A stretch of DNA of 45,841 nt, taken from positions 1 through 45,841 of IMG/VR virus record IMGVR_UViG_3300047998_000075; one strand, written 5' to 3'. Under the pieces are notes generated by a model. That model was not told the origin of the DNA. It saw only the letters and a list, made by a program, of their open reading frames with translations, and did no database searches. This document shows, one piece after another, positions 12,149 to 42,438 of this stretch (the first letter of the stretch is position 1; every line of letters starts with the position of its first letter). Made by a program: the position numbers and the translations under genes. Source of the DNA: a virus.

Positions 12149-14740
12149 ATGGCATTAAAAGATTTAAAATCTGACTTATCAAAGTTTAGAAGACCCATAG
12201 AGAAACCACTTTCTGATAAGAAGAGAGTGGACGTTCCTAAGTCTACTAATCAGACTCCCCTATCTCAATTTGTAGATAACGCACCTAATGCTCCCAAATC
12301 AAATACAACGACACCTAAACAAGGTGTAACTCCATCCAAGTTTGATAACTCATCAAAACACTTAGGAGAGGTCACACCATCCAAGTTTGATAACTCATCA
12401 AACTATTTGGGAGAAACGACTCCATCTAAAATGTCTTTGGAAGAACGATTCTTAGGACAAGCTGAAACAACCGAAGTAAATCAAGGCGATAAATTTAAAG
12501 GTGAAACCAAAACAACAAATATTACTCAAGGAGATAGATTTAAGGGTCAAACGACTCCTCAAGACTACTCCAGTGAGGAAAAGTTCAAAGGTGAAACCAC
12601 AACAACGGAATTCAGATTCACTCAACAATTCTTAGGTGAGACTACTCCAACTGAATTTAGCTTAACTGAACGATTCTTAGGTGAAACTACTCCTAATGTA
12701 TTTGGATTCTCAGAAAAATTCTTAGGTGAAACAACTCCTACCGACTTTAACTCGGAAGAACAATTCTTGGGTGAGACTACGCCAGTTGATTTTAATTTAA
12801 GTGAGAAATTCTTAGGTGAAACAACTCCTAATGGATTTACGTTTACCCCAAATTTTGACAATCAGGCTAAAGACCCTAAATTTGTAGACTTTATTACTAA
12901 CGATGATGCACGTGGATTTTCTCCATTCCAACAACCAAAGAACAATTCCACATTTACAGGTGTAGACCCTTCACAAACTCAGTTCGAAGGAGCAACTCCA
13001 ATTAGTGGTCAGTTCATTACTAACCAATATGGTGTAAATCTTCAAAACGATGGTGGGTTGGGTACTTCTTATACCAATAGTGTCTTAAAAACCACATACA
13101 ATAAGTTTAACCTAAAAGAAGATTCATATAACACGTCTATATTCAAACAACCATTTATACTAAGTGGTATACAACGAGAAAAAGGTGAACCGCAAACTCT
13201 TGGGTTTGGGTCATTCTCATTTATTAGAGGTGGTGCCGTAACATCAACCGCAAGAGCTGCAATTGATGTAGTAAGAATGGGGCAATTCCTATTAACACCC
13301 CGTGGTATTACATGGATTGCTAAACAAGTTGGAATGCAACGAAGTCAGAAGTATGGTAAGATATTTACTCCTGGTAATATGTTAGCAAGTTTGGGTGGCC
13401 AACACTTAGGATTAAAGTTTGACCGACCCGACTTAATTCCAATAGGTAAGCAGGGTTGGAAATATAATCCAAACTCTTCTATTAACGTAAGCCCATTACG
13501 TACGATATATAATATTTTTAAACTAAGAACCGGTAATGATGTATTACCACTTAACGAAGACCTTAAAGGTGGATTTGACTCAATTTATGGGATTGGTACG
13601 ACCAGAACCAGACGATTCGTTAATACATTTGATAATAGTGGTACACGATATGGTAATACAACCGCATATATCGGATTGGAGAATCGATTCTCAATAGGAC
13701 CGACTTCACCATATGCCAGAAATAAAAAAGATAATCCGGTTCTTTTTGCTAAAAAACGTTATGAATTACAAATAAATGATAGTCTTAGAGCAAATGATGA
13801 TGGTACTAAAACCACATTGGCTAAACAAACCCAAAAAGCATCACAAATACCAATTGATAAAGTATTTAAAGAACGTGGTTTGTATGAATCTGAAGGTAAG
13901 ACTGCCGGCTTTGGTAATGATATAAAAGATTACGAATCAATATCATATGGTACGATAGCTAAAATAGCAAATGGTGACAACCCATCAGACTACAATGGTG
14001 ACTTTAGAGGGGTAAAAACTCAAAAATACAATAACAACGTAAATCCTGATGGTTCAACCGATTATACTGATTACAATCTTGAAAAGACATATGGGATTCC
14101 ATCTACATATAAAACTAATCTAGAGAGAAATGCAATTGGAAATACAGTAGCTAAAATTGATAGTGTCTATGAAGAAGTTTTTAACGAAACACTAAAAAAC
14201 GACTTAGTACATTTATTCTTTGCATATGATACTGAATCAGGTACACAAGACAATTCAAAAATTATTCAGTTCCGTTCTACAATTAGTGGTGTAACTGAAA
14301 CATTCTCTCCATCATGGAATGGTATAAAATATCCAGGCCGTGCTGATAAGGCATATATGTATTCTGAATTTGAAAGAACTCTATCGTTTAATTTTAAAGC
14401 ATACGCATCATCACGAAATGAAATGAAAAATATGTGGAAAAAACTATCAGAGTTATCAAAATTAACAATGCCAACGTATGGTTCTGCATATTCAGGTCAC
14501 ATTTGTTATTTTAGATTAGGTCAAATTTGGGGTAATGGTAAAAAAGGTGTTCCATCCTTAATCACATCATTGTCTTATACAATTCCAGACGATTTATCTT
14601 GGGACATAAATCATGATGGTAAATTAGCAGAATTACCAATTGGGGCAGATGTTAGTATTGGTTTAACTCTTCTTCCAGACACTATTTATGATAGTAGTAA
14701 GAATCATTATTCATTCTATGATACAAAGGCAATTACATAA
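12149..14740 (+). CDS. Baseplate/tail protein with 15-residue repeats; possible tube-initiator domain
   Basis: 863 residues in three parts. Residues 1-58 are basic and disordered. Residues about 59-237 are roughly twelve copies of a 15-residue unit with consensus LGETTPxxFxxxExF (for example LGETTPTEFSLTERF, LGETTPVDFNLSEKF); the first copies read VTPSKFDNSSKH and some middle copies have KGET or KGQT. The C-terminal part, about 670-863, contains IIQFRSTISGVTETFSPSW, a FERTLSFNFKAYASSRNEM strand-helix and YSGHICYFRLGQIW, which resembles tube-like domains of baseplate cap/initiator proteins (T4 gp48/gp54 position). It follows the tape measure gene by 10 bases with an AAGGATAA ribosome site and overlaps the next start by one base. 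The exact T4 counterpart is uncertain. Confidence 0.5.
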   Translation: MALKDLKSDLSKFRRPIEKPLSDKKRVDVPKSTNQTPLSQFVDNAPNAPKSNTTTPKQGVTPSKFDNSSKHLGEVTPSKFDNSSNYLGETTPSKMSLEERFLGQAETTEVNQGDKFKGETKTTNITQGDRFKGQTTPQDYSSEEKFKGETTTTEFRFTQQFLGETTPTEFSLTERFLGETTPNVFGFSEKFLGETTPTDFNSEEQFLGETTPVDFNLSEKFLGETTPNGFTFTPNFDNQAKDPKFVDFITNDDARGFSPFQQPKNNSTFTGVDPSQTQFEGATPISGQFITNQYGVNLQNDGGLGTSYTNSVLKTTYNKFNLKEDSYNTSIFKQPFILSGIQREKGEPQTLGFGSFSFIRGGAVTSTARAAIDVVRMGQFLLTPRGITWIAKQVGMQRSQKYGKIFTPGNMLASLGGQHLGLKFDRPDLIPIGKQGWKYNPNSSINVSPLRTIYNIFKLRTGNDVLPLNEDLKGGFDSIYGIGTTRTRRFVNTFDNSGTRYGNTTAYIGLENRFSIGPTSPYARNKKDNPVLFAKKRYELQINDSLRANDDGTKTTLAKQTQKASQIPIDKVFKERGLYESEGKTAGFGNDIKDYESISYGTIAKIANGDNPSDYNGDFRGVKTQKYNNNVNPDGSTDYTDYNLEKTYGIPSTYKTNLERNAIGNTVAKIDSVYEEVFNETLKNDLVHLFFAYDTESGTQDNSKIIQFRSTISGVTETFSPSWNGIKYPGRADKAYMYSEFERTLSFNFKAYASSRNEMKNMWKKLSELSKLTMPTYGSAYSGHICYFRLGQIWGNGKKGVPSLITSLSYTIPDDLSWDINHDGKLAELPIGADVSIGLTLLPDTIYDSSKNHYSFYDTKAIT
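12323..12861 (+). repeat. In-frame 45-bp coding repeats (LGETTP units)
   Basis: About twelve tandem units of 45 bases inside the baseplate gene, each encoding a 15-residue variant of LGETTPxxFxxxExF. The DNA keeps the core TTAGGTGAAACTACTCC with synonymous changes, so units have diverged at wobble positions while the protein motif is held. Confidence 0.9.
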
Positions 14741-15045
14741 TGAATAGATACAACGACATAGAAATCCAAAAAGACAAAAAAGGTCGTAGGTTTAGAAAAA
14801 CTATTCTATTACCTATTATAGAACCATCCGAAAATGACACCTATATAGTAGGTATGGTTGGTGATAGGTTGGATAATCTTGCATTTAAATATTATCAAGA
14901 CTCTTCATTATGGTGGATTATTGCTAGAGCCAACGGATTGGGTAATGGTGATTTTACAGTACCAATTGGTAAACAAATTAGAATACCATTCGATAAGTTT
15001 GGTATAATAGATGAATACAACATATTAAATGACATAGAGATTTAG
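14740..15045 (+). CDS. LysM-like baseplate protein (T4 gp53 / P2 gpX type)
   Basis: 101 residues. Residues about 30-90 match a LysM-type module of contractile tails: DRLDNLAFKYYQDSSLWWIIARANGL, then a strand ending IGKQIRIP. The pattern of an xDxLDxLAxxxYxDxxLWWxIAxAN helix followed by GxxIxIP is shared by T4 gp53 and by phage P2 gpX, which join wedge or hub parts of the baseplate. T4 gp53 is longer (196), so this resembles the compact form. The ATG overlaps the stop of the preceding baseplate gene by one base and the hub gene follows after two bases, indicating translational coupling. Confidence 0.75.
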   Translation: MNRYNDIEIQKDKKGRRFRKTILLPIIEPSENDTYIVGMVGDRLDNLAFKYYQDSSLWWIIARANGLGNGDFTVPIGKQIRIPFDKFGIIDEYNILNDIEI

Positions 15046-18531: not shown

Positions 18532-19758
18532 GTGAAGATAGTAGATACAAACGAAAGATTACATAAACGCATCTCTGCCCTGTCAAGTAAGGTGTTGGTG
18601 TTTCCCATTCTAACAAGTTTGGTGAAACACCCTCATCTTTCAAGGATATCGTCTATTTTGATATCTGACGGTGATACTGACATTTTTGTGAACTATAATA
18701 ATATAGATGCAAATTGTGTAACTGATGAAATAGACTTCAGTCAATTCGAAGAGGTATGTGTGGTTGGTTTAAAAGAGCTCTTACACCATTACGACTACCT
18801 ACCTACAATGTACGACCTTGAAATGGAGTCATTCCATCAGGCGAAAGATTTCAATGTAGAAGAACGGCCTATATATACAATCTTTAGAAGACGTAAAGCT
18901 CCCAAAGCAAATGACCTCATTCCAATTTGGAAACACTATGAACAATTCCAAGATTGGAAAGTATTGTGGTCTCAAAATACGACCTCAAGTAAATTTAGTA
19001 AGTTGTATCCTAAATGTCTTAATTGGATAGAGCAAAGTGGGTTGTATACACACGATGGTATGGAGTATAGTCAATATAATATGTTCACTACCACATCTCG
19101 ACCATCAAACACCTTTGGTGGTATTAACTATGCAGCACTTCCAAAAGATGGTGAAGTTCGTAAGAGGTTCATATCACGATTTGAGGGTGGTAAATTGTAT
19201 CAATTAGATTTTGATGGATACCACTTACGACTTATTGGTAGTTTGATTGGTGTAGAAATACCATTGAACATCAAAGCACATAAGTGGTTAGCCGACCAAT
19301 ACGGAGCAGACCTCAAAGACGCAAAAGCAATCACCTTTAGACAATTGTATGGGGGTGTCCAAGATGAATACAAACATATTCCATTCTTTAGTAAGACCTC
19401 AGAGTATATAGAGTCACTTTGGAATGAGTTTTTGATGAATAAGGAGGTTCATACCCCGTTACTTAAAAGAAAGTTAGTATATAACTCGGATTTGAATAAA
19501 AATAAGTTATTTAATTACATCTTACAATCGGTTGAGACTGAAAGAAACATACTTATATTGGAGAAACTCTCTAATATGAAAAGCTCTCAAAAATCATTAC
19601 CCATCTTATACACATATGATTCAATTCTATTTGATGTACATCCGGATGATGGTATTGAATATATTTTAGAAATAAAAAAAGTTATGGAGTCCGGTGGGTT
19701 TCCAACTGACATTGAAATTGGAGATAATTACAAAGATATGGTTAAGGTCAATCTTTAG
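18532..19758 (+). CDS. Family A (Pol I-type) DNA polymerase, short form
   Basis: 408 residues. Motif A is LYQLDFDGYHLRLIGSLIG with D226 and D228 (the DYSxxELR element of Pol I, here DFDGYHLR). The fingers motif B is KDAKAITFRQLYGG near residues 262-275 (compare RxxAKxxNFGxxYG). Motif C is LPILYTYDSILFDV with D363 (compare VHDE). The N-terminal 130 residues (ILISDGDTDIFVNYN, VVGLKELLHHYDYLPTMYDLE) look like a degenerate DnaQ-type exonuclease fold without its acidic quartet. T7 and E. coli enzymes are 700-930 residues, so this is a compact version. The phage also encodes the usual T4-like B-family polymerase (39169-41685), so the role is probably specialised. The GTG start lies directly after a promoter. 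Confidence 0.75.
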   Translation: MKIVDTNERLHKRISALSSKVLVFPILTSLVKHPHLSRISSILISDGDTDIFVNYNNIDANCVTDEIDFSQFEEVCVVGLKELLHHYDYLPTMYDLEMESFHQAKDFNVEERPIYTIFRRRKAPKANDLIPIWKHYEQFQDWKVLWSQNTTSSKFSKLYPKCLNWIEQSGLYTHDGMEYSQYNMFTTTSRPSNTFGGINYAALPKDGEVRKRFISRFEGGKLYQLDFDGYHLRLIGSLIGVEIPLNIKAHKWLADQYGADLKDAKAITFRQLYGGVQDEYKHIPFFSKTSEYIESLWNEFLMNKEVHTPLLKRKLVYNSDLNKNKLFNYILQSVETERNILILEKLSNMKSSQKSLPILYTYDSILFDVHPDDGIEYILEIKKVMESGGFPTDIEIGDNYKDMVKVNL

Positions 19759-19764
19759 ATATTT

Positions 19765-21789
19765 ATGTTTATGAAGAAACTTATCAATTACATAGCACAA
19801 CAAGTATGGAATGAGGTTGGGGTATCCTTGAAAGAGGGTATTACCACAGAAGAGTCGCTCAAAGCTACATTTAAGGTAGTTTCAGAAATTACAGGTGATG
19901 AATTCGCAGAACAACTAATTACAAACTTATTAGAAGATAACACCGAATCGAATATACTGACTCAATCTAAAAATAATCAGTTAACGGAGTCTCTGTTAAT
20001 AGAATTGGGACAAATTCTTAGTGAAGCATCAATATATGATAATAAGTACTCGGTAGGTGATAAATTTATAGCACTTAAAAATACAGCCGATTTATTTAAA
20101 GTAGGACTACCACCATCTACACGTGTACCAAAGGGCCCGTTTAACAAAATAAAACCAACTGAAGATGGTATTGAAGTAAATATCAACAATGGTAGAACGG
20201 TGTATGTATCAGCTGATGATACGGGTAAAAACTATATTATTACAGCAAGTGATAAAAACATACAATCTTTATTTGGTAAAATGAAAAAAGGTGCATCGGC
20301 AACTGATGTAAACTTTGATACAGACACAATGGAAACCGCCGCATGTATGGGATTATATGTAAATGGTGTTGGTATTCTTAAAGAGTTAGATAATGCTAAA
20401 AATGAGGATGACTTATCAAAGGTTACCAAATCCATAAAGAATAGATTTATCAAAGCATTGGGAATGAGTGGTGATTACGCTAAACCTAATGAGATTTTAT
20501 CAAAATTAGACACAATGCCGTTGGGTGATTATTTTATGATAGCTCAATTAATGGCGGGTATGACTAAGTTTATGGACGCAGTTCCACCATTTAAAACCCC
20601 ACATTTAATTCATAAAAATATAAAAGGATACTACTCGGCAACTGAACGTTCTGAGTTGGTAGATGGGGTAAAGGATAATACCGCTGATTGTGTTGTATGT
20701 AATGTTCCAGGGTCTGAACTTATATCTAAGTTGAACGATGGGTTACCAGTTGAATACGATAAAAAGGGTGTTTGTACTATAAAAGGAACAAATATTAAGT
20801 TTTTACAAGTATCTCTTAAAAAAGGTAAGGGTGCTGCTCAATTAGGTAAAATATATGGATTCTTAAAAGATAAATATGGGTTATTAGATGCAGATGATGT
20901 TAAAAAACTAGCATTAGAGTCAGTACAATTAGATGAAGGGTTAAAAGATTTTTTAAATAAGGGTGTTACTTTTATAAAAAGTTTAGGTTCTAAGTTATTA
21001 GAGAAGATATCTAAATTGGCAAACTTTTTAGGTGGGTTTTTAAAGAAAATAGAGAAGGGGCTTAAAAAGTCTCCAAAATCTGAAATTAAAAAGTTAGAAA
21101 AAGAATTATTTAAAGCCGGATTACATGAAGGTATATTAAATGAGGCTAAAAAGCCAAAATTGTGGGATTCTTTTGACGAAATTGGTAGTAATCAAAAAGT
21201 ATTGGATAAGTTATTATCAAATGTTGATACTCAAATGAGTTCTTTGTTAAAAGCATCTATGTCCAATTCAGCATTCTACTTTAAAGGATATCAAAAATTA
21301 TCACTAACGGCGCCTGTAAAAAAAGATGTAGTTGCTAAATTATTAACTAACTTCCAATCGGCAATTGTATTAAAAAGTATATTAGGTGATTTATCAGCTG
21401 ACGCCAAATCCTTGTATTCTCAAATGGTAGAGTTAGAAAAGGAAATGGTATATGGTAAAACAACACTACCATTATATAAAGTATTTGGATTAGATAAAAG
21501 TGGTGGTGGTACACCATATGAACAATATCCAGGCTCAGAAACATTTATCCAAAATAAATTAGATAAGGATTTATCAGATACCGTTGTATTTTATTTAAGA
21601 GCAAATTCACAAGGTGGTGCATATTTTACAATATCCGCATATGGGTTAAGTGGTATTAACGAAGTTACTGGTGACTTAAAATATTCACAATTCAGAATGG
21701 GTACAAATTCAACTGGCAGATATAGTTACAACTTTGAAGGTACTAAGGAACTTCCATTAGGTAAAGTTAAATCAGCTTTAAATATATAA
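19765..21789 (+). CDS. Large conserved protein, possible virion or nuclease-like protein
   Basis: 674 residues, no family recognised with confidence. The N terminus is helical (LINYIAQQVWNEV). The middle has NTADCVVCNVPGSELISKLN and then IKFLQVSLKKGKGAAQLGKIYGFL near residues 350-375; a D followed about 45 residues later by Q-V-S-L-K-K resembles the acidic/E-x-K core of PD-(D/E)XK nucleases with Q in place of E. That is a weak suggestion only. Residues about 395-455 are a lysine-rich amphipathic helix region (KGVTFIKSLGSKLLEKISKLA, FLGGFLKKIEKGLKK), which looks membrane-binding. The C-terminal third is beta-rich with KYSQFRMGTNSTGRYSYNFEG. It starts six bases after the polymerase gene stop; ATG codons at 19765 and 19771 are both possible. 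Confidence 0.6.
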   Translation: MFMKKLINYIAQQVWNEVGVSLKEGITTEESLKATFKVVSEITGDEFAEQLITNLLEDNTESNILTQSKNNQLTESLLIELGQILSEASIYDNKYSVGDKFIALKNTADLFKVGLPPSTRVPKGPFNKIKPTEDGIEVNINNGRTVYVSADDTGKNYIITASDKNIQSLFGKMKKGASATDVNFDTDTMETAACMGLYVNGVGILKELDNAKNEDDLSKVTKSIKNRFIKALGMSGDYAKPNEILSKLDTMPLGDYFMIAQLMAGMTKFMDAVPPFKTPHLIHKNIKGYYSATERSELVDGVKDNTADCVVCNVPGSELISKLNDGLPVEYDKKGVCTIKGTNIKFLQVSLKKGKGAAQLGKIYGFLKDKYGLLDADDVKKLALESVQLDEGLKDFLNKGVTFIKSLGSKLLEKISKLANFLGGFLKKIEKGLKKSPKSEIKKLEKELFKAGLHEGILNEAKKPKLWDSFDEIGSNQKVLDKLLSNVDTQMSSLLKASMSNSAFYFKGYQKLSLTAPVKKDVVAKLLTNFQSAIVLKSILGDLSADAKSLYSQMVELEKEMVYGKTTLPLYKVFGLDKSGGGTPYEQYPGSETFIQNKLDKDLSDTVVFYLRANSQGGAYFTISAYGLSGINEVTGDLKYSQFRMGTNSTGRYSYNFEGTKELPLGKVKSALNI

Positions 21790-21804: not shown

Positions 21805-22191
21805 GTGAGAACACAATTATTATGTACATTCACTAATGAAAGTGAGTTTGAAGGTCTTGTTGATAGAATACTCAGAGAATATGAGTTATTTAGTCGCAAG
21901 ATTTTCGTATTGAAGTTAGACCCTTCAAAAGAATTAGTGATTAGTTATAATATAATTCCAAATTCAGTAAAATTCCCACCATCAACGATTATGGTACATA
22001 GAAAGAAAGAATCTAACACGATGTACACCATCAATGCACTAAATCGAGTGATTAGTACTGAGAATGGTGGGGTATTGGATAAGTCTTACCAAGTTGATTG
22101 GAATAAATATAGAAATTCAGTTATATTAACAGATGGTGATGGTTACAAGGTAATGAGGACAAGTTTATTTAGAATCATAGATGTAAAATGA
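21805..22191 (+). CDS. Conserved phage protein, function unknown (GTG start)
   Basis: 128 residues. The GTG at 21805 is chosen because a Shine-Dalgarno (ACGGAGA) lies 7 bases upstream; the ATG at 21801 is in another frame that stops after eleven codons. The sequence MRTQLLCTFTNESEFEGLVD, then FVLKLDPSKELVISYNI, MVHRKKESNTMYTINALNRVI and YQVDWNKYRNSVIL follows a pattern ('LLCTF ... ELxxxYNx ... TIxVHRKKxxNTxYTINALN ... VDWxxYxNxxxL') that I recall from unnamed proteins of T4-like cyanophages. It is predicted alpha/beta and soluble. Function is unknown. Its stop overlaps the next start (ATGA). Confidence 0.75.
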   Translation: MRTQLLCTFTNESEFEGLVDRILREYELFSRKIFVLKLDPSKELVISYNIIPNSVKFPPSTIMVHRKKESNTMYTINALNRVISTENGGVLDKSYQVDWNKYRNSVILTDGDGYKVMRTSLFRIIDVK

Positions 22192-23719: not shown

Positions 23720-24481
23720 ATGGCTATTGATTTAAATGCAATCCGCAATCGTTTGAACACGCTTCAAACAAAAGTAACAAAGACTGATAATCTTTGGAAA
23801 CCACAACCAGGTAAACAACAAATCCGTATTTTACCTTACACCCACAACACGTCTAATCCATTTATTGAGTTGTACTTCCACTTTGGTTTTGGTGGTAAGA
23901 ACATCATCTCTCCAAGTTCGTTTGGTGAGGCTGACCCATTATTGGAATTCGCTGAAAAGTTGAAAGCAACTGGAAATCGTGATGATTACCAATTGTCTCG
24001 TAAACTAACCCCTAAGATGAGAACATACGTGCCAGTATTGGTTCGTGGTGAAGAGTCTGAAGGTGTTAAGTTTTGGGGATTTGGTAAAAACGTTTACCAA
24101 GAACTATTAGGATTCTTCGCAGACCCTGATTATGGTGATTTAACCGACCCTGTAAATGGTCGTGACGTAACAGTAGAATTCAAAACTGCTGCTGAACTTG
24201 GTAAGTCTTATCCTGAAACTTACATTCGTGTTAAACCAAACACAACTCCAATCTCTGAGGATTCAAACATTGTTGAAACTTCGAAAGACCAGATTGAACT
24301 TCCAGGTATGTTCAAAAAAGTAACATATGAAGAAATGGAAGGTATGTTGAAAGAATGGTTAGAAACTGGTGAAGTATCAGATACCAAAGAACAACCAGTT
24401 GCTGAAACATCTCAACCAACTCAATCAACCGCTCCTGCATCGAACGTAAAAGATGCTTTCGACGATTTATTTAACGACTAA
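23720..24481 (+). CDS. 32: Single-stranded DNA-binding protein, T4 gp32-like
   Basis: Coats ssDNA at the replication fork and organises UvsX and helicase loading. 253 residues against 301 in T4. The N-terminal LNAIRNRLNTLQTK is the cooperativity region. The OB-fold core has WKPQPGKQQIRILPY, IELYFHFGFGGKNI, the YVPVLVRGEESEGVKFWGFGK block and GRDVTVEFK. The C terminus ends in an acidic tail after a Pro/Thr/Gln linker (VKDAFDDLFND), the usual partner-binding tail. The T4 zinc ligands (a Cys-His-Cys-Cys set) are absent; the protein has no cysteine at all. It is the first gene of an operon with uvsX, rnh and a nucleotidyltransferase-like gene. Confidence 0.9.
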   Translation: MAIDLNAIRNRLNTLQTKVTKTDNLWKPQPGKQQIRILPYTHNTSNPFIELYFHFGFGGKNIISPSSFGEADPLLEFAEKLKATGNRDDYQLSRKLTPKMRTYVPVLVRGEESEGVKFWGFGKNVYQELLGFFADPDYGDLTDPVNGRDVTVEFKTAAELGKSYPETYIRVKPNTTPISEDSNIVETSKDQIELPGMFKKVTYEEMEGMLKEWLETGEVSDTKEQPVAETSQPTQSTAPASNVKDAFDDLFND

Positions 24482-24486
24482 TCAGT

Positions 24487-25617
24487 ATGGCTAAGAAGAA
24501 GGCAAGTTCACGTGATGAACTATCTTCTATCCTCGCTACCAACCTAAACAAGAAGTTTAAGTCTGCCAATAAGGTGGCTTACTTCTTGGATGGGGAGGAG
24601 ACTACTCCTACCGACTTAGATGAGTGGGTATCGACTGGCTCCCCTATGTTGGATTTAGCAATCTCAAACCGACCAAATGGTGGATTACCAGTAGGTCGTA
24701 TCACTGAGATTACAGGATTAGAGGGTAGTGGTAAATCACTATTGGCAGCTCACTCAATCGCAGACACTCAGAAGAAGGGTGGTCTTGGAGTCTATATAGA
24801 CACTGAGAACGCAATGAATCAAGAGTTCTTAGAAGCAATTGGTGTTGATGTCAAAAAGATGTTATACGTTCCATTAGAAACTGTGGAAGACATCTTTGAA
24901 GCAATCGATTCAATCATTGAATCGGTACGTTCTTCTGACAAGAAGAAATTGGTTACAATCGTAGTTGACTCCGTAGCAGGTGCATCTACTAAAGTTGAGA
25001 TATCAGCTGATTATGACCAAGCCGGTTACGCAACTCAAAAAGCCATCATTATCTCGAAGGCAATGAGAAAGGTAACTAATCTTATTGGACGAGAACGAAT
25101 TTCACTAATCTTCACCAATCAATTGAGAACGCGTTTAGGTGTATCATTTGGTGACCCTTGGACAACGAGTGGTGGTAAGGCAATTGCATTCCACTCATCG
25201 TGTAGATTGAGACTGAAACAAATGGGTCAGTTGAAATCCAAAGTAGGTGGTGTAGACCAAGTGGTTGGTATTAAGACTCGTGCTCAAGTAGTTAAGAATA
25301 GAATGGGGCCACCGCTCCGTTCGGTAGATTACGATATTTACTTTGATAGGGGTATCGATAATTATGGTTCTTGGTTACAAATGATGAAGAGTTATAAACT
25401 GATTGACCAAAGTGGTGCTTGGTATACTTATGTAGATAAAGAGACTGGCGAAGAGGTTAAATTCCAAGCTAAGAACTTCGAAGACCTCTTACAAGAGAGA
25501 CCTGAAATGAAGGAATCGATTTATCAACAAATTTGTGATGCATACATTATGTCTTACAAAAAATCAAGTGAAGAAGCAAATATAGATAACGTAGAAGTAG
25601 CAGATTTCGATGCATAG
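24487..25617 (+). CDS. uvsX: UvsX RecA-like recombinase
   Basis: Strand-exchange recombinase for recombination-dependent replication and repair. 376 residues against 391 in T4. The Walker A motif is GLEGSGKS with K83; GVYIDTENAMNQEFLEAIGV carries the catalytic glutamate; Walker B is VTIVVDSVAGAS. A RecA-type SKAMRKVTNLIGRERISLIFTNQLRTR segment includes the NQ sensor, and SFGDPWTTSGGKAIAFHSS follows. It begins five bases after the gp32 stop and overlaps rnh by eight bases, so the gp32-uvsX-rnh genes are probably translated together. Confidence 0.95.
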   Translation: MAKKKASSRDELSSILATNLNKKFKSANKVAYFLDGEETTPTDLDEWVSTGSPMLDLAISNRPNGGLPVGRITEITGLEGSGKSLLAAHSIADTQKKGGLGVYIDTENAMNQEFLEAIGVDVKKMLYVPLETVEDIFEAIDSIIESVRSSDKKKLVTIVVDSVAGASTKVEISADYDQAGYATQKAIIISKAMRKVTNLIGRERISLIFTNQLRTRLGVSFGDPWTTSGGKAIAFHSSCRLRLKQMGQLKSKVGGVDQVVGIKTRAQVVKNRMGPPLRSVDYDIYFDRGIDNYGSWLQMMKSYKLIDQSGAWYTYVDKETGEEVKFQAKNFEDLLQERPEMKESIYQQICDAYIMSYKKSSEEANIDNVEVADFDA

Positions 25618-26659
25618 TAGATACGCAGAACTCCTCAATGAAGTGAGTCAAGAACATAATGAAGTGAAGGACGAGAGTCTTAATGATAACGTTCTAATCA
25701 TAGATGGATTAAATCAATTTATCAGAGTATTTGGGGCAGTACCTGCGTTGAATGATGATGGAGAACATTGTGGTGGTGTGACAGGATTCCTCTTGTCCAC
25801 CGCTGCAACCATCCGAAGATTGAAACCTACACGTGTCGTTATCGTGTTTGATGGTAAGGGTGGGTCTAATCGTAGAAAGTCAATGTATAAGGGTTATAAG
25901 GAAGGTCGTACTGGTCTGACTAAAATCAATAGATTGGCTGGATACGAAGATTTGGAGGACCAACAAGTGTCAATGAGAAATCAATTCACACGATTGATTG
26001 AGTATCTCCAAATCTTACCTATCTCTCTTACCTATATTGATTATGTTGAGGCAGATGATATCATGGCATATCTCGCAAATCACTACTTTAAGAAAAACGT
26101 TACAATCATCTCATCAGACAAAGACTTTTTACAATTGGTAAACCACCGAATTAAGGTATGGGCCCCTACTAAGAAGAAAATGTATGATGAAGAGCTTGTA
26201 ATGAAAGATTATGGTGTTAAACCACAAAATCTTGTATTTTATCGTATGATTGAGGGTGATAAATCCGATAACATTGAGGGTGTCAGGGGTGTTGGTCCTA
26301 AAACCATTCTTAATAAGATGGCATTCCTAAATGATGAGGTTCTTGAAATGGACACATTCATATCTAAAATCAAAACTGAGTGTGATGATAAATTGTCACA
26401 AAAGTTGATTGAAAATGTGACAACTCTCGAAATGAATTACAATCTAATGCAACTTAAAGACCCTGAAATCTCATCTTCAATCAAATCGAAGGTTAGAGAG
26501 ATTATGGATGAACAAGAGGCTACATTGGATATTCCTGAATTTAAGAAAATGTTTATGTATGATAAGTTATATACTGCATTCTCAAACGTAGATTCTTGGT
26601 TACGTAACTCGTTTAGTCTTTTGGATGGATTCCTAAAGAATCATTCGAATGCATCCTGA
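25610..26659 (+). CDS. rnh: RNase H / 5'-3' exonuclease, T4 Rnh-like
   Basis: FEN/PIN-family 5' nuclease that removes RNA primers from Okazaki fragments; 349 residues against 305 in T4. Acidic site: LIIDGLNQFIR with D32, VVIVFDGKGGSNRRKSMYKG, YVEADDIMAYLA (ExDD cluster) and TIISSDKDFLQLV. The helix-hairpin-helix DNA-binding part follows as MIEGDKSDNIEGVRGVGPKT. The gene overlaps uvsX by 8 bases and the next gene by 11. All key residues are present, so it should be active. Location beside gp32 matches the functional partnership known in T4. Confidence 0.9.
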   Translation: MHSRYAELLNEVSQEHNEVKDESLNDNVLIIDGLNQFIRVFGAVPALNDDGEHCGGVTGFLLSTAATIRRLKPTRVVIVFDGKGGSNRRKSMYKGYKEGRTGLTKINRLAGYEDLEDQQVSMRNQFTRLIEYLQILPISLTYIDYVEADDIMAYLANHYFKKNVTIISSDKDFLQLVNHRIKVWAPTKKKMYDEELVMKDYGVKPQNLVFYRMIEGDKSDNIEGVRGVGPKTILNKMAFLNDEVLEMDTFISKIKTECDDKLSQKLIENVTTLEMNYNLMQLKDPEISSSIKSKVREIMDEQEATLDIPEFKKMFMYDKLYTAFSNVDSWLRNSFSLLDGFLKNHSNAS

Positions 26660-27231: not shown

Positions 27232-28590
27232 ATGGAGAAGTTAGGAAGTAAGTTTAGTACATCATTTCAGAATAAAGTAATCTCTGCTATCATATCAGAT
27301 AGGGCATTCACTCGTCAAATCTATGATATATTAAAACCAGAGTACTTTGATTCGGAATCATCCGAGTGGTTAGTTAAGACCACTTTAAAGTATTTCGATG
27401 ACTATGGGACAATGCCAACGTTGGATGTCCTTAAAGTAAAGATAAACACGATTGAGAGAGATGTCCTAAAGACTTCAGTAGTTGATACACTAAAATTCGC
27501 TTGGAATCATTTACAAACCGATGACTTACCTTATGTAAAAGAGCAGGTACTTGACTTTTGTAAAAATCAATCTATTAAGAACGCAATCTTAGATTCAGTA
27601 ACCTTATTAGAAGATGGTAAGTATGACACTATAAAAAAGAACATTGATACTGCAATGAAAGCAGGTCAAGATTCGGATATAGGTCATGATTACAAAGTAA
27701 TGATAGCTGAACGATATGAAGATTCAGTTCGTAATGTTGTATCTACTGGGTGGGATGTTGTTGATGAGATTACTCAAGGTGGATTTGGTAAAGGTGAACT
27801 TATTCTATTTGCAGCACCTCCTGGAATTGGTAAGTCATGGGCATTGGTAAACATTGGTGTTAATGCTATGAAAGCAGGTAAAACAGTTGCTCACTACACC
27901 CTTGAATTGAATGAAGGTTATACTGGTCAGAGGTATGATGCTGTTTTAAGTGGTGTTGCAGTCGCTAATCTAAAGTATAATATGGAAGATGTCGAGAAAG
28001 CAATTAACAATGTGAAGGGTGACTTGGTAATCAAACATTATCCAACTAAAACTGCCGGTGTAACGTCAATTAAGGCACATATGGATAGAATGACTCTTCA
28101 AGGTAAAAAACCAGATGTGGTTATCGTTGATTATGCTGACTTGTTGAAAGGTCCTACGAAAGAGAAACGACACGAAGAGTTGGAAGAAATCATCGAAGAC
28201 CTTAGAGGTATGGCAGGTGAGTATGAAGTTCCAGTCTTTACGGCATCTCAGATTAATAGAAGTGGTGCAGAAGATGACATCATTACAGGTACTAAGATTG
28301 CTGGGTCATTCTCCAAGATGATGACTGCTGATTTTGTGGTATCATTATCTCGTAAGATTGAAGATAAACTCGCAGGAACTGGTAGATGGCACGTAATTAA
28401 GAATCGTTTTGGACCTGATGGTATGACGTTCCCATCTAAAGCAAACTTTTCAACTGGACAAATTCACATCTATAATGAAGATTCCATTAATGGTCAACAA
28501 ACCAAAAAGGACATGAAAGGTGGGGAGAGTTTAGTAAGAAAAGAATTGGCACAAAAATATAAAGAAATGAGTGGTGATATTGGTTTTTAG
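27232..28590 (+). CDS. 41: Replicative DNA helicase, T4 gp41-like (DnaB family)
   Basis: Hexameric 5'-3' helicase that unwinds ahead of gp43. 452 residues against 475 in T4. The N-terminal helical domain (residues 1-140) begins FQNKVISAIISDRAFTRQI. The RecA-like motor has Walker A APPGIGKSW with K201, VAHYTLELNEGYTGQRYDA (catalytic-Glu element H1a), Walker B VVIVDYADLL with D300, and VFTASQINRSG (H3 sensor). The DnaB family ending SRKIEDKLAGTGRWHVIKNRFGP is present. Its own promoter lies directly upstream. No primase (gp61) or helicase loader (gp59) is seen in this window. Confidence 0.92.
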   Translation: MEKLGSKFSTSFQNKVISAIISDRAFTRQIYDILKPEYFDSESSEWLVKTTLKYFDDYGTMPTLDVLKVKINTIERDVLKTSVVDTLKFAWNHLQTDDLPYVKEQVLDFCKNQSIKNAILDSVTLLEDGKYDTIKKNIDTAMKAGQDSDIGHDYKVMIAERYEDSVRNVVSTGWDVVDEITQGGFGKGELILFAAPPGIGKSWALVNIGVNAMKAGKTVAHYTLELNEGYTGQRYDAVLSGVAVANLKYNMEDVEKAINNVKGDLVIKHYPTKTAGVTSIKAHMDRMTLQGKKPDVVIVDYADLLKGPTKEKRHEELEEIIEDLRGMAGEYEVPVFTASQINRSGAEDDIITGTKIAGSFSKMMTADFVVSLSRKIEDKLAGTGRWHVIKNRFGPDGMTFPSKANFSTGQIHIYNEDSINGQQTKKDMKGGESLVRKELAQKYKEMSGDIGF

Positions 28591-36848: not shown

Positions 36849-38030
36849 ATGTTAGAAGTTAAAAAGAAAAAGGGTAAGATGATGATTAACCCATCACAAC
36901 TTAAACCCAATCCTAAAAATGCTCATTTGTACAGTAACAAAGAGAAGGAATCAAAAAAGCAAGCAGAAATAGCAGAAACCTACAAAGAACGAATTTCTGA
37001 TAAAAAAGTTCCCAACATCCAACCTGTGTTAATCCATAAAGATGGGTTGATTGATTCTGGCCATACTAGATATGAGGCGGCTAAAATCGTAGGCTGTGAT
37101 TTATGGTGTGAATATACTGATGCGGAATATCCAAGTGATGATAAACCATTTAGTACTTTAGTGGATTTAGCCGTAAGTAATGTTAGGCGAGAAGTTTCAC
37201 ATTCAGATAGACTGAGTGAATTTATAGAGTTCAATAATGCATATGTAACAGAATTTGGTATCGCTCGACCTGCTAAAGATGAAAATATACATCTTAAACA
37301 AATGGGTACTAGTCGAAAAACTATAAAAGAGTTGATTGATATCAAAAACAACAAACCTGAATTGTTACAAAAATGTGATTCTGGTGAAATGGCAGTTAAT
37401 TTTGCTTGGAAAGAAGCCACAGGTAGAAATAAAGTTAAGGTTACCGCATCTAATAATCCTAATAGAGATTGGAGTGAGATTTATGAAGATTCATTCTTTA
37501 CAAATATGGTGAATCGAGCTTTTAATACAATCAAACAAATGATGGCTTTGACTGTTAACATCAATGGTGTAGACTATCCCCCAGTTATGGACTTTACAAA
37601 AGGTACTATTGCTGGTAACATTTCTCATTTGCTGGAAACTATTGGTGCTGAATTATTAAAAAGTGAGGGACATGATGTGAAGTGTGCTAGTGGCCATCCC
37701 ACCGACCCTGATATATATCATAATGATATTGATGATAAGGTTGAGATTAAGGTTACTAACTTTAAGGGTAATTCTACTACTTGGAAAGGTGGTATGGGGA
37801 TTAGAGAAGGTCAATATATTTTAATGACTTATGATGAACATATTGAGAGACTGTGTTTAATATTCACTAAGTTAGATGCTAATGATTGGAAATCAGCTGG
37901 TATCGGTGGCCACACATTACCAATTTCAAATGTTTGGAACAACCACAAAGATGATGTTGGGTTCAGAATTATCTATGGTGATGTTTTCGAAAACAATGGT
38001 AAGGTTGAATTACAATTAAGTAAATATTAA
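36849..38030 (+). CDS. ParB-like domain fused to PD-(D/E)XK nuclease
   Basis: 393 residues in two domains. Residues about 13-85 form a ParB/Srx-type domain: NPKNAHLYS, IQPVLIHKDGLIDSGHTRYEAAKIVGC with D69-S-G-H-T-R74, the ParB 'xxGxxRxxAxxxxG' site. Residues about 230-393 form a restriction-endonuclease-like fold: helix GNISHLLETIGAELLKSEGH, then TDPDIYHND with P287-D288, and VEIKVTNFKG with E299-I-K301, giving PD-x(10)-E-x-K, followed by GQYILMTYDE. The N-terminal codon is taken as the ATG at 36849; ATGs further in (MM at about residue 11) would also keep the ParB part. It lies directly after two Mom-like genes and shares an operon with the GT-B gene and gp43. Confidence 0.75.
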   Translation: MLEVKKKKGKMMINPSQLKPNPKNAHLYSNKEKESKKQAEIAETYKERISDKKVPNIQPVLIHKDGLIDSGHTRYEAAKIVGCDLWCEYTDAEYPSDDKPFSTLVDLAVSNVRREVSHSDRLSEFIEFNNAYVTEFGIARPAKDENIHLKQMGTSRKTIKELIDIKNNKPELLQKCDSGEMAVNFAWKEATGRNKVKVTASNNPNRDWSEIYEDSFFTNMVNRAFNTIKQMMALTVNINGVDYPPVMDFTKGTIAGNISHLLETIGAELLKSEGHDVKCASGHPTDPDIYHNDIDDKVEIKVTNFKGNSTTWKGGMGIREGQYILMTYDEHIERLCLIFTKLDANDWKSAGIGGHTLPISNVWNNHKDDVGFRIIYGDVFENNGKVELQLSKY

Positions 38031-39169
38031 TGAGTTTTTGGGAATCAGTAGATTACAAAAATGCTAGGAAAGTATTGGTAATCCCGAATATTACAAATTC
38101 ATCTAATATTGAGAAAGACTCGTTTATTGATGTGATACATAATCATATCAAGGCATTGGATAATTGTGGTGAATACTATTGGAATGTATTAGTACCAAAA
38201 GGTAAGGTTACCAAGAAACTAAATCTACCAAATGTAAAGCAGATTGAGATTCACATTCCAGGTGATATGATGAATCAACGTTCATTCCCCTCGGTAGATT
38301 TAATCAAAGTGTTAAAAGATGTTGAGTATGATGTAATATACTCTCATTTACCAGATTGGCCTCAAGTGGGTAGGTATGCTAGGTGGGGTACTAAGATAAT
38401 TGGATATTCACATTGGTTTGAAGGTTCAAAGTATCTACCTTGTAATGGTGTGGATAGACGAGATGGTAAGGCTAAGTGGTTATGGTTACCAGTTGAACTA
38501 ATGGGTATCTCTCAGATGGATACGTGTTACCTAAATACCCAAGACCAAAAGAACCGAGTCCTTGATGAGGCTAGATTGATGTTCAATGAAGACTTTGTTA
38601 GTAAGTTGGATGATATTTTAACAGTGTGGAACTTAGGTGTACCACAAGACAAAATCGTGACTGAGGTAAAGGATAGTAAAGATAACATCATAGTATTCAA
38701 TCATAGACCAGCCGCATACAAGGGGTATCCAAAGTTTATTGAGCTGATGGAAGAGTATCGTAATCAGCGACAAGACTTTACGGTATGGATTCCACAATTA
38801 AGTGGTAAGATACCATTCGCTTGGATTGATAACACGAAAGTACCAAAACACGAATACTACCAACGACTTCAAAATTGTAAGGTAGGTGTTCAGATGAAAC
38901 AAACCAACTATGGGTGGTCGGTAAGTGGTACTGATTGTATGATGAATGGTACACCTATGATATGGCACGATTCTGATTGTTATCATGAAATTGATACTGA
39001 TGGGATGTTCTTTAAAACAAAGAAGGAATTCTTTCAACACTTAGATAATATCTTGGATGATGACACATTCAGACAAGAACGAGACAATATGTCACTTCAG
39101 AGAGCAACGGAACTATCTTTGAATGAAGATATAATGATTAAAGAACTACATAAACAATTGACTGATTAA
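38030..39169 (+). CDS. GT-B fold glycosyltransferase, possibly DNA-directed
   Basis: 379 residues with GT-B layout. The N-terminal domain starts KVLVIPNITNSSNIEKDSF and includes YDVIYSHLPDWPQVGRYARWG. The linker and C-terminal domain have IVFNHRPAAYKGYPKFIELM (start of a donor-binding Rossmann fold), YYQRLQNCKVGVQMKQT and SVSGTDCMMNGTPMIWHDSDCY, a GT4-like 'S-x-x-E' region altered to a TDCMMNGTP form. The start overlaps the nuclease stop by one base and the stop overlaps the gp43 start by one base. T4 encodes GT-B DNA glucosyltransferases, and this gene's position between a putative modification module and the polymerase makes a DNA target possible, but protein or glycan targets are equally open. 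Confidence 0.7.
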   Translation: MSFWESVDYKNARKVLVIPNITNSSNIEKDSFIDVIHNHIKALDNCGEYYWNVLVPKGKVTKKLNLPNVKQIEIHIPGDMMNQRSFPSVDLIKVLKDVEYDVIYSHLPDWPQVGRYARWGTKIIGYSHWFEGSKYLPCNGVDRRDGKAKWLWLPVELMGISQMDTCYLNTQDQKNRVLDEARLMFNEDFVSKLDDILTVWNLGVPQDKIVTEVKDSKDNIIVFNHRPAAYKGYPKFIELMEEYRNQRQDFTVWIPQLSGKIPFAWIDNTKVPKHEYYQRLQNCKVGVQMKQTNYGWSVSGTDCMMNGTPMIWHDSDCYHEIDTDGMFFKTKKEFFQHLDNILDDDTFRQERDNMSLQRATELSLNEDIMIKELHKQLTD

Positions 39170-41685
39170 TGTATCAAAATGTATACTTCGAAAAAGAAAA
39201 CAACCTTATCCATTGTTGGGATGATGAGAAAGGTTACTTCACATCTAAATACCGTAGATATGCTTACGTTAGAGATGGGAATGGTGCTCATACTTCTATT
39301 CATGGAGAGAGGTTAAAGAAAATCAACTTTTGGAAGCAAGACGATGGTCTTCAATTGTATGAAAGTGATGTAAACGAGATGACACGATTTCTGATTGACC
39401 AATATGGTGATTCAGATGAGGTATCGACTGGACACACTGTACTTACCTTTGATATTGAGGTAGAGATGAATAGTGGTCTACCCGATACAAATGAAGCTAA
39501 GAATGCTATGACCTCAGTCGCAGGTCATGATTCGGTTAGTGGTGATTACTTTGTATATGTTGTAAACAAAGGTGAGAAGATTAATAAGACCATCAAAGGT
39601 GCTACGGTAGAATCGTTTGATACTGAAGAGGGTATGTTAGTTGCATTCCTAAACAAATGGAAAGAAATCAATCCAACTATTATTACTGGTTGGAACATTG
39701 ACTTCTTTGATGTCACGTATCTATACAACCGAATGAAGAGAGTGTTGGGTGAGTCTATGGCAAACCAACTATCACCTATTGGTAAAGTTCATTGGAATAA
39801 GTATCGTAATCGTTATTTGATTGCTGGTGTGTCTGCATTGGACTACATCGCTTTATTTAAGAACTTTACATATACTGAATATCCAAACTACCGATTAGAC
39901 ACTATCGCTAAGTTAGAATTGGGTAGAGGTAAGATTGAGTATGAGGGAAACCTTGACCAATTGTTCAGAGATGACTTGGAAACGTTTATTGAGTATAACT
40001 TGGTGGATGTTGAATTGGTTGTTGATATGGATAAGAAACTTCAATTCATTGATTTGGCCAGAGCAATATGTCACGCAGGTCACGTATTCTATGAAGACTT
40101 CTTATTCTCATCAAAGTGGTTAGAGGGTGCAATGTTAACATTCCTACGTAGGAGTGGTCGTGTTGCTCCAAACAAACCAAGACGAAGAGCACGTAATGAT
40201 GATGGAACTGAGGCTGAAGGTAAGTTTACCGGCGCATATGTAAAAGAACCTAAACCTGGTCTTTACAAATGGGTATATGATTTGGATTTAACATCACTAT
40301 ATCCATCTATCATTATGACCATCAATATCTCGCCAGAGACAAAGATTGGTAAGTTAAAGAACTATGTGGCTGAAGACCATATGAAGGGTAAGATTGAAAC
40401 ATATTCGATTATCGATGACGATGGTAATGAGTTCCCCCCATTAGCTAAGGATAAGTTTATGAACTTTATCGAAAAGTCAAACTACTCAGTTGCTGCTAAT
40501 GGTGTTCTATATCGCAGAGATAAGGTAGGTGTGATTCCTGAGATTCTTAATGTTTGGTTTGACAAACGTGTGGAATACAAAGACCTCATGAAGAAGTATG
40601 GTAAGGAAGGTAATGATGAACTTTACAAGTTCTACTCTCAACGTCAGTTGGTACAAAAGATTATGTTGAACTCCTTATATGGGGTACTTGGTCTACCATC
40701 ATTCCGATTCTATGATGTGGATAATGCTGAGGCAACCACAATCACAGGTCAGACTGTAATTAAGACTACTGAGTTGATTGCTAACCAATACTACACAAAG
40801 AATATTGGTAAGGAAGCGGATTACAATGTGTATACTGATACGGATTCCGTATTCTATCAGGCAGCACCGCTTGTAAAAGCACGTAATCCTGAAATTGATG
40901 AGAACTCAGATGAACAAATGATTCCAGCAATTCTATCAGTCGCTAAAGAGGTTGAGGAACATATCAACAATGTGTATGATATGATGGCATTTAAATTGTT
41001 CAACGTAGACACTCACCGATTCGACATCAAACAAGAGACTATCGCTAAGGGTGGTTTTTGGGTATCGAAGAAGAGATACGCTCAATGGATTATCAATGAT
41101 AATACCGTTGATTGTGATAAGTTGGATGTGAAGGGGTTAGATGTAAAACGTTCATCATTCCCAGTATACTTCAAAGAGGTAATGTCTACTGTACTGATGG
41201 ATATCCTAAAGGATGAGGACAAGAAGAAGTTGGATGATAAAATCCTAAACTATAAGGATGGGATGACTGACCAGCCATTTGTGAATATCGCAAAGAACTC
41301 GGCTGTAAAGGATATGTCTAAGTATAGGTTTAAGGACCAAGCACTTGGTGAGTTCATGAAGGGGACACCTGCTCACGTAAAGGCTGCACTTACTTACAAC
41401 CAACTATTGAAGAAGTTTGACGCTCCTTACAAATATGAACCAATGAAGGATGGTGATAAGATTAAGTGGGTATATCTAAAGAAGAATCCACTTGGACTTC
41501 AGACTACCGGATTTACTGGTCACTCCGACCCACCTGAAATCAACGCATTCATTGAACAATACATTGACTACGATTTGATTTGGGAGAAGGAGTTGAACAA
41601 TAAGTTAGATGACTTCTACAAAGCAATGAATTGGGAGAAGCCAAATCCTAACCTTGCTGCTGCAGCACAATTTTTCTCATTTTAA
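39169..41685 (+). CDS. 43: DNA polymerase, B family, T4 gp43-like
   Basis: Main replicative polymerase with proofreading; 838 residues against 898 in T4. Exo I is TFDIEVEMN with D95 and E97; Exo II region TGWNIDFFDVTYLYNR; Exo III at YNLVDVELVVDM. Polymerase motif A is DLDLTSLYPSI with D371 and D373, motif B is KIMLNSLYGVLGLPSF, and motif C is YTDTDSVFY with D557 and D559. KKRYAQWI follows. All catalytic residues are present. The C terminus AAAAQFFSF is a plausible clamp-binding peptide. It is translated from a one-base overlap with the GT-B gene. Confidence 0.97.
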   Translation: MYQNVYFEKENNLIHCWDDEKGYFTSKYRRYAYVRDGNGAHTSIHGERLKKINFWKQDDGLQLYESDVNEMTRFLIDQYGDSDEVSTGHTVLTFDIEVEMNSGLPDTNEAKNAMTSVAGHDSVSGDYFVYVVNKGEKINKTIKGATVESFDTEEGMLVAFLNKWKEINPTIITGWNIDFFDVTYLYNRMKRVLGESMANQLSPIGKVHWNKYRNRYLIAGVSALDYIALFKNFTYTEYPNYRLDTIAKLELGRGKIEYEGNLDQLFRDDLETFIEYNLVDVELVVDMDKKLQFIDLARAICHAGHVFYEDFLFSSKWLEGAMLTFLRRSGRVAPNKPRRRARNDDGTEAEGKFTGAYVKEPKPGLYKWVYDLDLTSLYPSIIMTINISPETKIGKLKNYVAEDHMKGKIETYSIIDDDGNEFPPLAKDKFMNFIEKSNYSVAANGVLYRRDKVGVIPEILNVWFDKRVEYKDLMKKYGKEGNDELYKFYSQRQLVQKIMLNSLYGVLGLPSFRFYDVDNAEATTITGQTVIKTTELIANQYYTKNIGKEADYNVYTDTDSVFYQAAPLVKARNPEIDENSDEQMIPAILSVAKEVEEHINNVYDMMAFKLFNVDTHRFDIKQETIAKGGFWVSKKRYAQWIINDNTVDCDKLDVKGLDVKRSSFPVYFKEVMSTVLMDILKDEDKKKLDDKILNYKDGMTDQPFVNIAKNSAVKDMSKYRFKDQALGEFMKGTPAHVKAALTYNQLLKKFDAPYKYEPMKDGDKIKWVYLKKNPLGLQTTGFTGHSDPPEINAFIEQYIDYDLIWEKELNNKLDDFYKAMNWEKPNPNLAAAAQFFSF

Positions 41686-41717
41686 TTTGGATAGTCCAAT
41701 TTAATTTCGTATATTAG
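41686..41717 (+). promoter_or_regulatory. Bacteroidetes-type promoter for the clamp operon
   Basis: TTTG 41686-41689, 20 bases, TATATTAG 41710-41717, immediately after the gp43 stop. TTGGATAGTCCAA (41687-41699) is an inverted repeat inside the promoter. The leader to the ATG at 41742 is A/T-only apart from two C and has no Shine-Dalgarno. Confidence 0.75.
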
Positions 41718-41741
41718 TATAATAAATAACAAATAATAACA

Positions 41742-42437
41742 ATGAAAAAGAATTCTATTGAAGGTTTCATCTCTCGTTACAACTTGGGTGGTGAAGTGGA
41801 GTCAGTAAAAGTTAATTCTACTGACGCCGGAATGCAAGTTTCATTCATCTCTGATGACAAAACTCTATTGGGTACTGTTGAGAGTGAAGAGACTGGCTTT
41901 CCAAATGGAGAGTATGGGGTTTATACCACATCTCAATTAAAAGGTCTACTTGGTGTATTGGGTAGTCAAGTTGATGTATCCGAAGGTACGGCTGCATTGG
42001 TATTCTCTGATGGTAAAACTTCAGTAAACTATATGTTGGCTGACCTTTCAGTTATTCCAGTAGTACCTGAACTAAAACAACTTCCACCATTTACATCTAA
42101 TGTAACTATGGATGGTGATTTCATCGCTACCTTTACGAAAGCTAAGGGTGCTATGTCTGATTCAGACACGTTTACATTTACGTGTAAAGAAAACAAAGGT
42201 GAGGTAATTTTAGGTTACTCTAAAATCAACTCTAACCGAATCTCTATGAATGTCGAGTGTACGTGTGAAAGTGATGTTGAACCAATTTCATTCTCAGCTA
42301 AGTACTTGAAAGAGATTCTAAGTGCTAATCGTGGTGCTAAGTCATCTTCTTTGAAGATTTCACCACAAGGTCTTGCTCACGTTGCATTTGAGCATGATGG
42401 ATTCAAGTCTAATTACTATTTAGTAGAGATTAAGTAA
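41742..42437 (+). CDS. 45: Sliding clamp, T4 gp45-like
   Basis: Trimeric processivity clamp for gp43, also used in T4 to activate late transcription. 231 residues against 228 in T4. It has two repeats of the clamp fold without enzyme motifs: the N-terminal half runs through YGVYTTSQLKGLLGVLGSQV and MLADLSVIPVVPELKQLPPF, the linker typical of gp45; the second half includes FTKAKGAMSDSDTFTFTCKE and EPISFSAKYLKEILSANRGA followed by a closing YYLVEIK strand. It has its own strong promoter. One base separates it from the DUF4338-like gene. Confidence 0.93.
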   Translation: MKKNSIEGFISRYNLGGEVESVKVNSTDAGMQVSFISDDKTLLGTVESEETGFPNGEYGVYTTSQLKGLLGVLGSQVDVSEGTAALVFSDGKTSVNYMLADLSVIPVVPELKQLPPFTSNVTMDGDFIATFTKAKGAMSDSDTFTFTCKENKGEVILGYSKINSNRISMNVECTCESDVEPISFSAKYLKEILSANRGAKSSSLKISPQGLAHVAFEHDGFKSNYYLVEIK

Positions 42438-42438
42438 T

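Follow-up and report, generated by a model that had tools for sequence, protein, structure and literature searches.

The gene at 18532–19758 of the window, the term used here for the whole analysed stretch of 45,841 nucleotides (positions 1–45,841 of IMG/VR virus record IMGVR_UViG_3300047998_000075), encodes a compact family A DNA polymerase (cPolA) that belongs to a family published in 2024 and is constantly present, as a core gene, in a large lineage of aquatic phages. This family, divPolA1, was described by Yutin et al. (2024, Virol J 21:200; PMC11348598) from 14 phages, with gp001 of Flavobacterium phage immuto as an example. According to the main text of that report, divPolA1 is a divergent PolA located beside a regular family A, B, or C polymerase, with a conserved palm, a truncated thumb, and an inactive exonuclease, and a role in replication is presumed from the replication genes found downstream in the 14 genomes. 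The same main text mentions neither a histidine nor the steric gate, and neither SSB nor UvsX by name. New in the present analysis are an invariant E710H/H881Y pocket (Pol I numbering), the extent and constancy of the cPolA family, and a 128-aa partner, the gene for which may already be drawn in the figures or supplements of PMC11348598.

The gene and the segments of its product are arranged as follows.
18532–19758, plus strand: cPolA, compact family A DNA polymerase (divPolA1 family), 408 aa, GTG start.
18532–18861, plus strand: N-terminal part (about residues 1–110), a small α/β domain according to the secondary structure of the model, whole-length Foldseek matches to Klenow, and the family alignment.
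18862–19056, plus strand: helical segment (about residues 111–175), a probable reduced thumb in the AlphaFold2 model; thumb truncation is reported for divPolA1 in the main text of PMC11348598.
19192–19233, plus strand: motif A region, residues 221–234 KLYQLDFDGYHLRL, with catalytic D226 (=D705) and H231 at the steric-gate position (=E710).
19315–19356, plus strand: motif B, residues 262–275 KDAKAITFRQLYGG, with K265 (=K758), F269 (=F762), and Y273 (=Y766).
19609–19632, plus strand: motif C, residues 360–367 YTYDSILF, with Y362 (=H881), catalytic D363 (=D882), and S364 (=E883).

The start position is common to close relatives, with GTG, TTG, or ATG as the codon. The C-terminal 250 residues constitute the palm and fingers of a family A DNA polymerase, and residues 156–406 match PHROG_17 ('DNA polymerase', a PolA family; E = 6.9e-17). 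The palm and fingers that the preliminary description had expected from structure prediction are present in the AlphaFold2 model built from 90 sequences (mean pLDDT, 94.6; pTM, 0.91), which in a Foldseek search matched the Klenow fragment (E = 1.3e-16; TM score up to 0.74, normalised by the query) and also Pol theta, Pol nu, and Taq. The window sequence alone gave no match in a Pfam search, and a direct phmmer search of the PDB returned chance matches only; PF00476 was matched individually by 54 of 90 family members, and the 90-member cPolA profile matched the Klenow and Taq polymerases in the PDB. Alignment of the cPolA profile with a reference PolA profile (hhalign probability, 99.4; E = 3.9e-21) placed D226 and D363, the two residues proposed beforehand as catalytic aspartates, on D705 and D882, respectively. 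The other aligned pairs are R190 on R668, H231 on E710, K265 on K758, Y273 on Y766, Q332 on Q849, and Y362 on H881; a match of N199 with N675 was dropped, being ambiguous between alignments. The ORF, HMM, profile alignment, and model thus agree on a compact family A polymerase with motifs A, B, and C at the residues to which they had been assigned initially, motif A (LDFDGYHLR) holding both D226 and D228.

The first ~110 residues are taken as a truncated, inactive remnant of a 3′–5′ exonuclease, a feature already surmised from the bare sequence: the first long strand of this domain is without the DxE motif in the family alignment and the AlphaFold2 secondary structure, and D95 is the sole Asp/Glu before residue 130 at positions conserved in at least 80% of the members. 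H33, K81, and D95 of this domain are kept in most members while the exonuclease acids are gone, hinting at some other retained function. About 65 residues separate the domain from the palm in the AlphaFold2 model. As compared with bacterial Pol I (Klenow), the fold and the catalytic motifs are the same, and the phages encode a Pol I-type 5′–3′ exonuclease separately; cPolA differs in its length (408 versus 605 aa), in the shorter spacing from motif A to motif C (137 residues versus 177 in Pol I), and in the replacement of E710, H881, usually R754, and the exonuclease residues. Of the 50 matches listed in a BFVD search, 49 are longer than cPolA and one has 334 aa. Judged from sequence comparison, cPolA is under purifying selection (dN/dS against relatives, 0.09–0.28).

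Membership of cPolA in the divPolA1 family is near certain. It is ~31% identical to immuto gp001 over nearly the full length (tblastn, 84% of the query; E = 3e-38), all the family-invariant residues being common to both. The window resembles the published genomes also in having cPolA in addition to a regular polymerase, with palm catalytic residues, an inactive exonuclease, and downstream replication genes; the published genomes have main polymerases of family A, B, or C according to the main text of PMC11348598, whereas that of the lineage described here is nearly always PolB. Relatives retrieved by tblastn and IMG/VR scans include Flavobacterium phage immuto, Microcystis phage Mel-JY01, a 484-kb uncultured phage, and many viral contigs, amounting to at least about 190 loci. 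Among the first 189 loci, the product is 400–480 aa long in all but 11 of 176 complete ORFs, and compactness is therefore a trait of the family. divPolA1 thereby goes from a curiosity in 14 genomes to a core gene of this lineage. In a tree of 25 cPolA members and seven reference PolAs, the members, the window protein included, group together in a single clade with a long stem (ultrafast bootstrap, 85), and the two PolAs of immuto are split, with gp001 within the clade and the 777-aa gp199 outside. Excluded from the final tree was divPolA2, which when included produced a long-branch artefact inside cPolA. This protein of barbaviruses and relatives is likewise a second small PolA-like protein (~430 aa) beside a regular polymerase, but has another N-terminal domain and a variable neighbourhood (main text of PMC11348598) and, unlike cPolA, an E at the steric-gate column in a rough and uncertain alignment. 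Recent acquisition or a fragment as the origin of cPolA was ruled out by the constant length, collinearity, low dN/dS, and co-divergence. A scan of genome contigs for cPolA yielded five MAG fragments, from which no host could be assigned securely.

The key active-site residues are invariant or nearly so. All of 101 diverse members share R190, D226, H231, Y273, Q332, Y362, and D363; 100 of them also have K265, the remaining one showing an unread X. F269, another residue of ribonucleotide discrimination, is kept in the family. The counterpart of E710 is His and that of H881 is Tyr in every member examined, while all seven reference PolAs retain E710 and H881. Some of the scans used motif A (two scans) or motif C among the search patterns. 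Ascertainment bias was nevertheless rejected as the source of H231, as a scan with C-terminal patterns only still gave H231 in 73 of 73 members reaching motif A; Y362 is likewise invariant in the loci from a scan whose patterns left out motif C. The counterpart of R754, which in Pol I contacts the triphosphate, is mostly Tyr and sometimes Arg. Loss of E883 was discarded as a special trait of cPolA, Ser being common at this position in phage PolAs of the reference alignment and present also in Tt72 polymerase (PMC9324360). E710 has been called universally conserved in family A as well as a fidelity residue (PMC4882331), and sterically blocks ribonucleotides in Pol I (PMC9324360). By the steric-gate glutamate as a criterion of family A, cPolA would fall outside, having His in all members; it is still a family A enzyme by fold and profile, and His at the steric gate marks a subfamily. 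H231 may stand in for the hydrogen bond of E710 to Y766, kept as Y273. As far as residue identities allow, a pocket with His at the steric gate and Tyr in motif C is expected to select the sugar or the nucleotide differently.

Genes for a T4-type polymerase, its clamp, and its clamp loader are located at 39169–44546.
39169–41685, plus strand: gp43-like DNA polymerase of family B, complete (838 aa) and including an exonuclease domain (PF00136, E = 3e-42; PF03104, E = 5e-23; PHROG_262, E = 5e-192).
41742–42437, plus strand: gp45-like sliding clamp (PHROG_223, E = 1.9e-10).
43584–44546, plus strand: gp44-like clamp loader (PHROG_168, E = 1.5e-80), with ATG at 43626 as a plausible alternative start.

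The complete B-family gp43 reported in the preliminary description was hence confirmed, and is presumed to be the replicase because it has a proofreading domain and is adjoined by the clamp and loader genes. Between the latter two genes, a DruA-like protein is encoded at 42439–43629 (PF14236, E = 2.3e-24; PHROG_19197), an odd site for a Druantia-type protein. gp43 was found on 13 of 13 close cPolA contigs, and also in Mel-JY01 and LR756508. In LR756508 (the 484-kb phage; locus L283), the gp43 relative lies in four matching pieces over 8 kb (259363–267281), which suggests inteins, introns, or a split gene. Immuto is without gp43 and has the 777-aa PolA instead. The more distant cPolA contigs carry PolB in all 15 cases of at least 53 kb, and six further contigs of at least 52 kb comprise four with PolB, one with a full-length, immuto-type PolA in place of gp43, and one 52-kb fragment on which none was found. 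Altogether, a regular polymerase is present on 32 of 33 cPolA contigs of at least 51 kb (31 PolB and 1 PolA), some of which are near-identical strains and not all independent. In the reverse direction, 19 contigs were chosen for their gp43: cPolA is present on 14, and on the other five the sequence upstream of gp43 spans at most ~10.6 kb, not enough for a judgement. Two polymerase families in one phage, initially regarded as unusual for the lineage, are therefore the rule in the cPolA clade, in line with the 2024 account of divPolA1 (main text of PMC11348598); T4 itself is without cPolA. Microcystis phage Mel-JY01 (PP395634) has both polymerases in the same gene order, with gp43 48.5% identical to that of the window; its compact PolA is just 28% identical and is annotated as 'hypothetical protein', and a literature search found no paper on this phage.

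Upstream and downstream of cPolA, the following conserved genes were identified.
14740–15045, plus strand: gp25-like baseplate wedge subunit, the conserved upstream landmark (PHROG_7145, E = 2.1e-11).
21805–22191, plus strand: 128-aa conserved partner gene; of the 157 loci that extend 3 kb or more downstream of cPolA, 156 have it on that side.
23720–24481, plus strand: gp32-like single-strand DNA-binding protein (SSB; PF08804, E = 9.5e-13; PHROG_1192).
24487–25617, plus strand: UvsX/RecA recombinase (PF00154, E = 1.3e-56; PHROG_97).
25610–26659, plus strand: Pol I-type 5′–3′ exonuclease as a separate gene (PF02739, E = 3.3e-31; PF01367, E = 2.7e-10).
27232–28590, plus strand: DnaB/gp41-like replicative helicase (PF03796, E = 9.9e-25; PHROG_19).

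All 171 loci that have three or more landmarks are collinear for the order gp25–baseplate–cPolA–128-aa gene–SSB–UvsX–5′–3′ exonuclease–helicase, and the 5′–3′ exonuclease is present in all 19 cPolA genomes tested. Evolutionary distances for cPolA correlate with those for SSB (r = 0.77) and for UvsX (r = 0.69), values reached by 0 of 500 permutations. The 128-aa partner has a conserved core, HRKKESNTMYTINALN, and its model is a confident α/β structure (pLDDT, 94.0); the window copy gave no PHROG or Pfam match, and a fold search with the model found nothing significant. Between cPolA and this gene, a 674-aa protein without a clear family match is encoded at 19765–21789; it has motifs resembling T4 gp21 protease sites and is perhaps a head or injected protein. 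Of 16 cPolA records, 11 encode a gp61-like (DnaG-type) primase at another site, among them every searched record of at least 157 kb, by which cPolA as a needed primase substitute was rejected. With gp43-, gp45-, gp44-, gp32-, UvsX-, and gp41-like genes, the window resembles the T4 replisome; to our knowledge, T4 has no family A polymerase.

Taking these data together, we give about even chances to cPolA being a catalytically competent, non-proofreading, short Pol I-like accessory polymerase for gap filling or primer replacement beside the replicase gp43. Its activity, substrate, and partners, as we infer them, would be the following. While gp43 with its clamp and clamp loader would copy the genome, cPolA would make short DNA patches, extending 3′ ends at gaps; these may arise where the separate Pol I-type 5′–3′ exonuclease takes out RNA primers, or in the intermediates that UvsX generates during recombination and that the gp32-like protein covers. 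The exonuclease and cPolA, encoded by two genes of one cluster, might in this way divide between them a task that bacterial Pol I performs as a single polypeptide. Among the roles suggested in the preliminary description, gap filling fits the gene neighbourhood best, although a position next to recombination and replication genes does not discriminate among primer replacement, recombination-linked synthesis, and lesion bypass. Moreover, T4 has a weaker match to the same 5′–3′ exonuclease family and yet no PolA, so that such an exonuclease does not demand a cPolA partner, and with R754 mostly replaced and the thumb probably reduced, the activity of cPolA could be weak or need a cofactor.

The presence of cPolA in one collinear cluster with the gp32-like SSB, UvsX, and helicase, and its divergence in step with SSB and UvsX, would also suit a polymerase that extends the invading 3′ end in UvsX D-loops or restarts collapsed forks, with gp43 taking over later. 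We regard this as a minority possibility, for the cluster contains the exonuclease of primer-removing type and the helicase as well and so does not single out recombination, and T4, in which recombination-linked synthesis is done by gp43 alone, manages without a further enzyme. Somewhat less probable is lesion bypass, in which an enzyme that lacks proofreading and has a changed nucleotide pocket would copy past damage in sunlight-exposed phage DNA: the loss of the 3′–5′ exonuclease and the replacement of the fidelity residue E710 (PMC4882331) are traits that a bypass enzyme could show, but the catalytic pocket is strongly constrained and no pointer to a damage response is found among the neighbours.

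Returning to the accessory polymerase, a more specific but improbable idea is that this widespread family A branch, through E710H and H881Y, accepts in its pocket what Pol I rejects or copes with badly, such as RNA in primers or gaps, or ribonucleotides, sharing labour with gp43. If active, cPolA would show how ribonucleotides are excluded or accepted by a family A enzyme without the standard gate, and what a second polymerase is still required for in a phage whose T4-type replisome is complete. We think it improbable that the steric-gate His enables handling of ribonucleotides or RNA strands as the function proper (primer extension, RNA-containing gaps, or limited RNA synthesis). The invariance of H231 in the 101 members and in the 73 of the motif-A-free scan speaks for it, given that E710 blocks ribonucleotides (PMC9324360); however, His is bulky and could still exclude the 2′-OH, F269 is kept, and the phages already have a DnaG-type primase.

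That cPolA follows the baseplate genes and has mostly lost R754 might point to a catalytically inactive protein with a structural or regulatory function, or to a part of the virion, a quite unlikely reading in view of key catalytic residues invariant among members down to ~30% identity and of the low dN/dS. Least probable by our estimate, and disfavoured as a general role despite its mention in the preliminary description, is a specialisation for copying hypermodified phage DNA, as the two tandem Mom-family proteins of the window (PF25680; 35197–36736) and the deazaguanine modification genes of immuto are set against Mom relatives in just 7 of 19 cPolA genomes with cPolA constant, and no single DNA modification common to all cPolA genomes was found.

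Two other genes of the window are also of note. A protein with weak ParB-like matches is encoded at 36849–38030, after the two Mom-family genes, and a 558-aa protein at 523–2199 joins a glycosyltransferase to an OGFOD2-like oxygenase domain.
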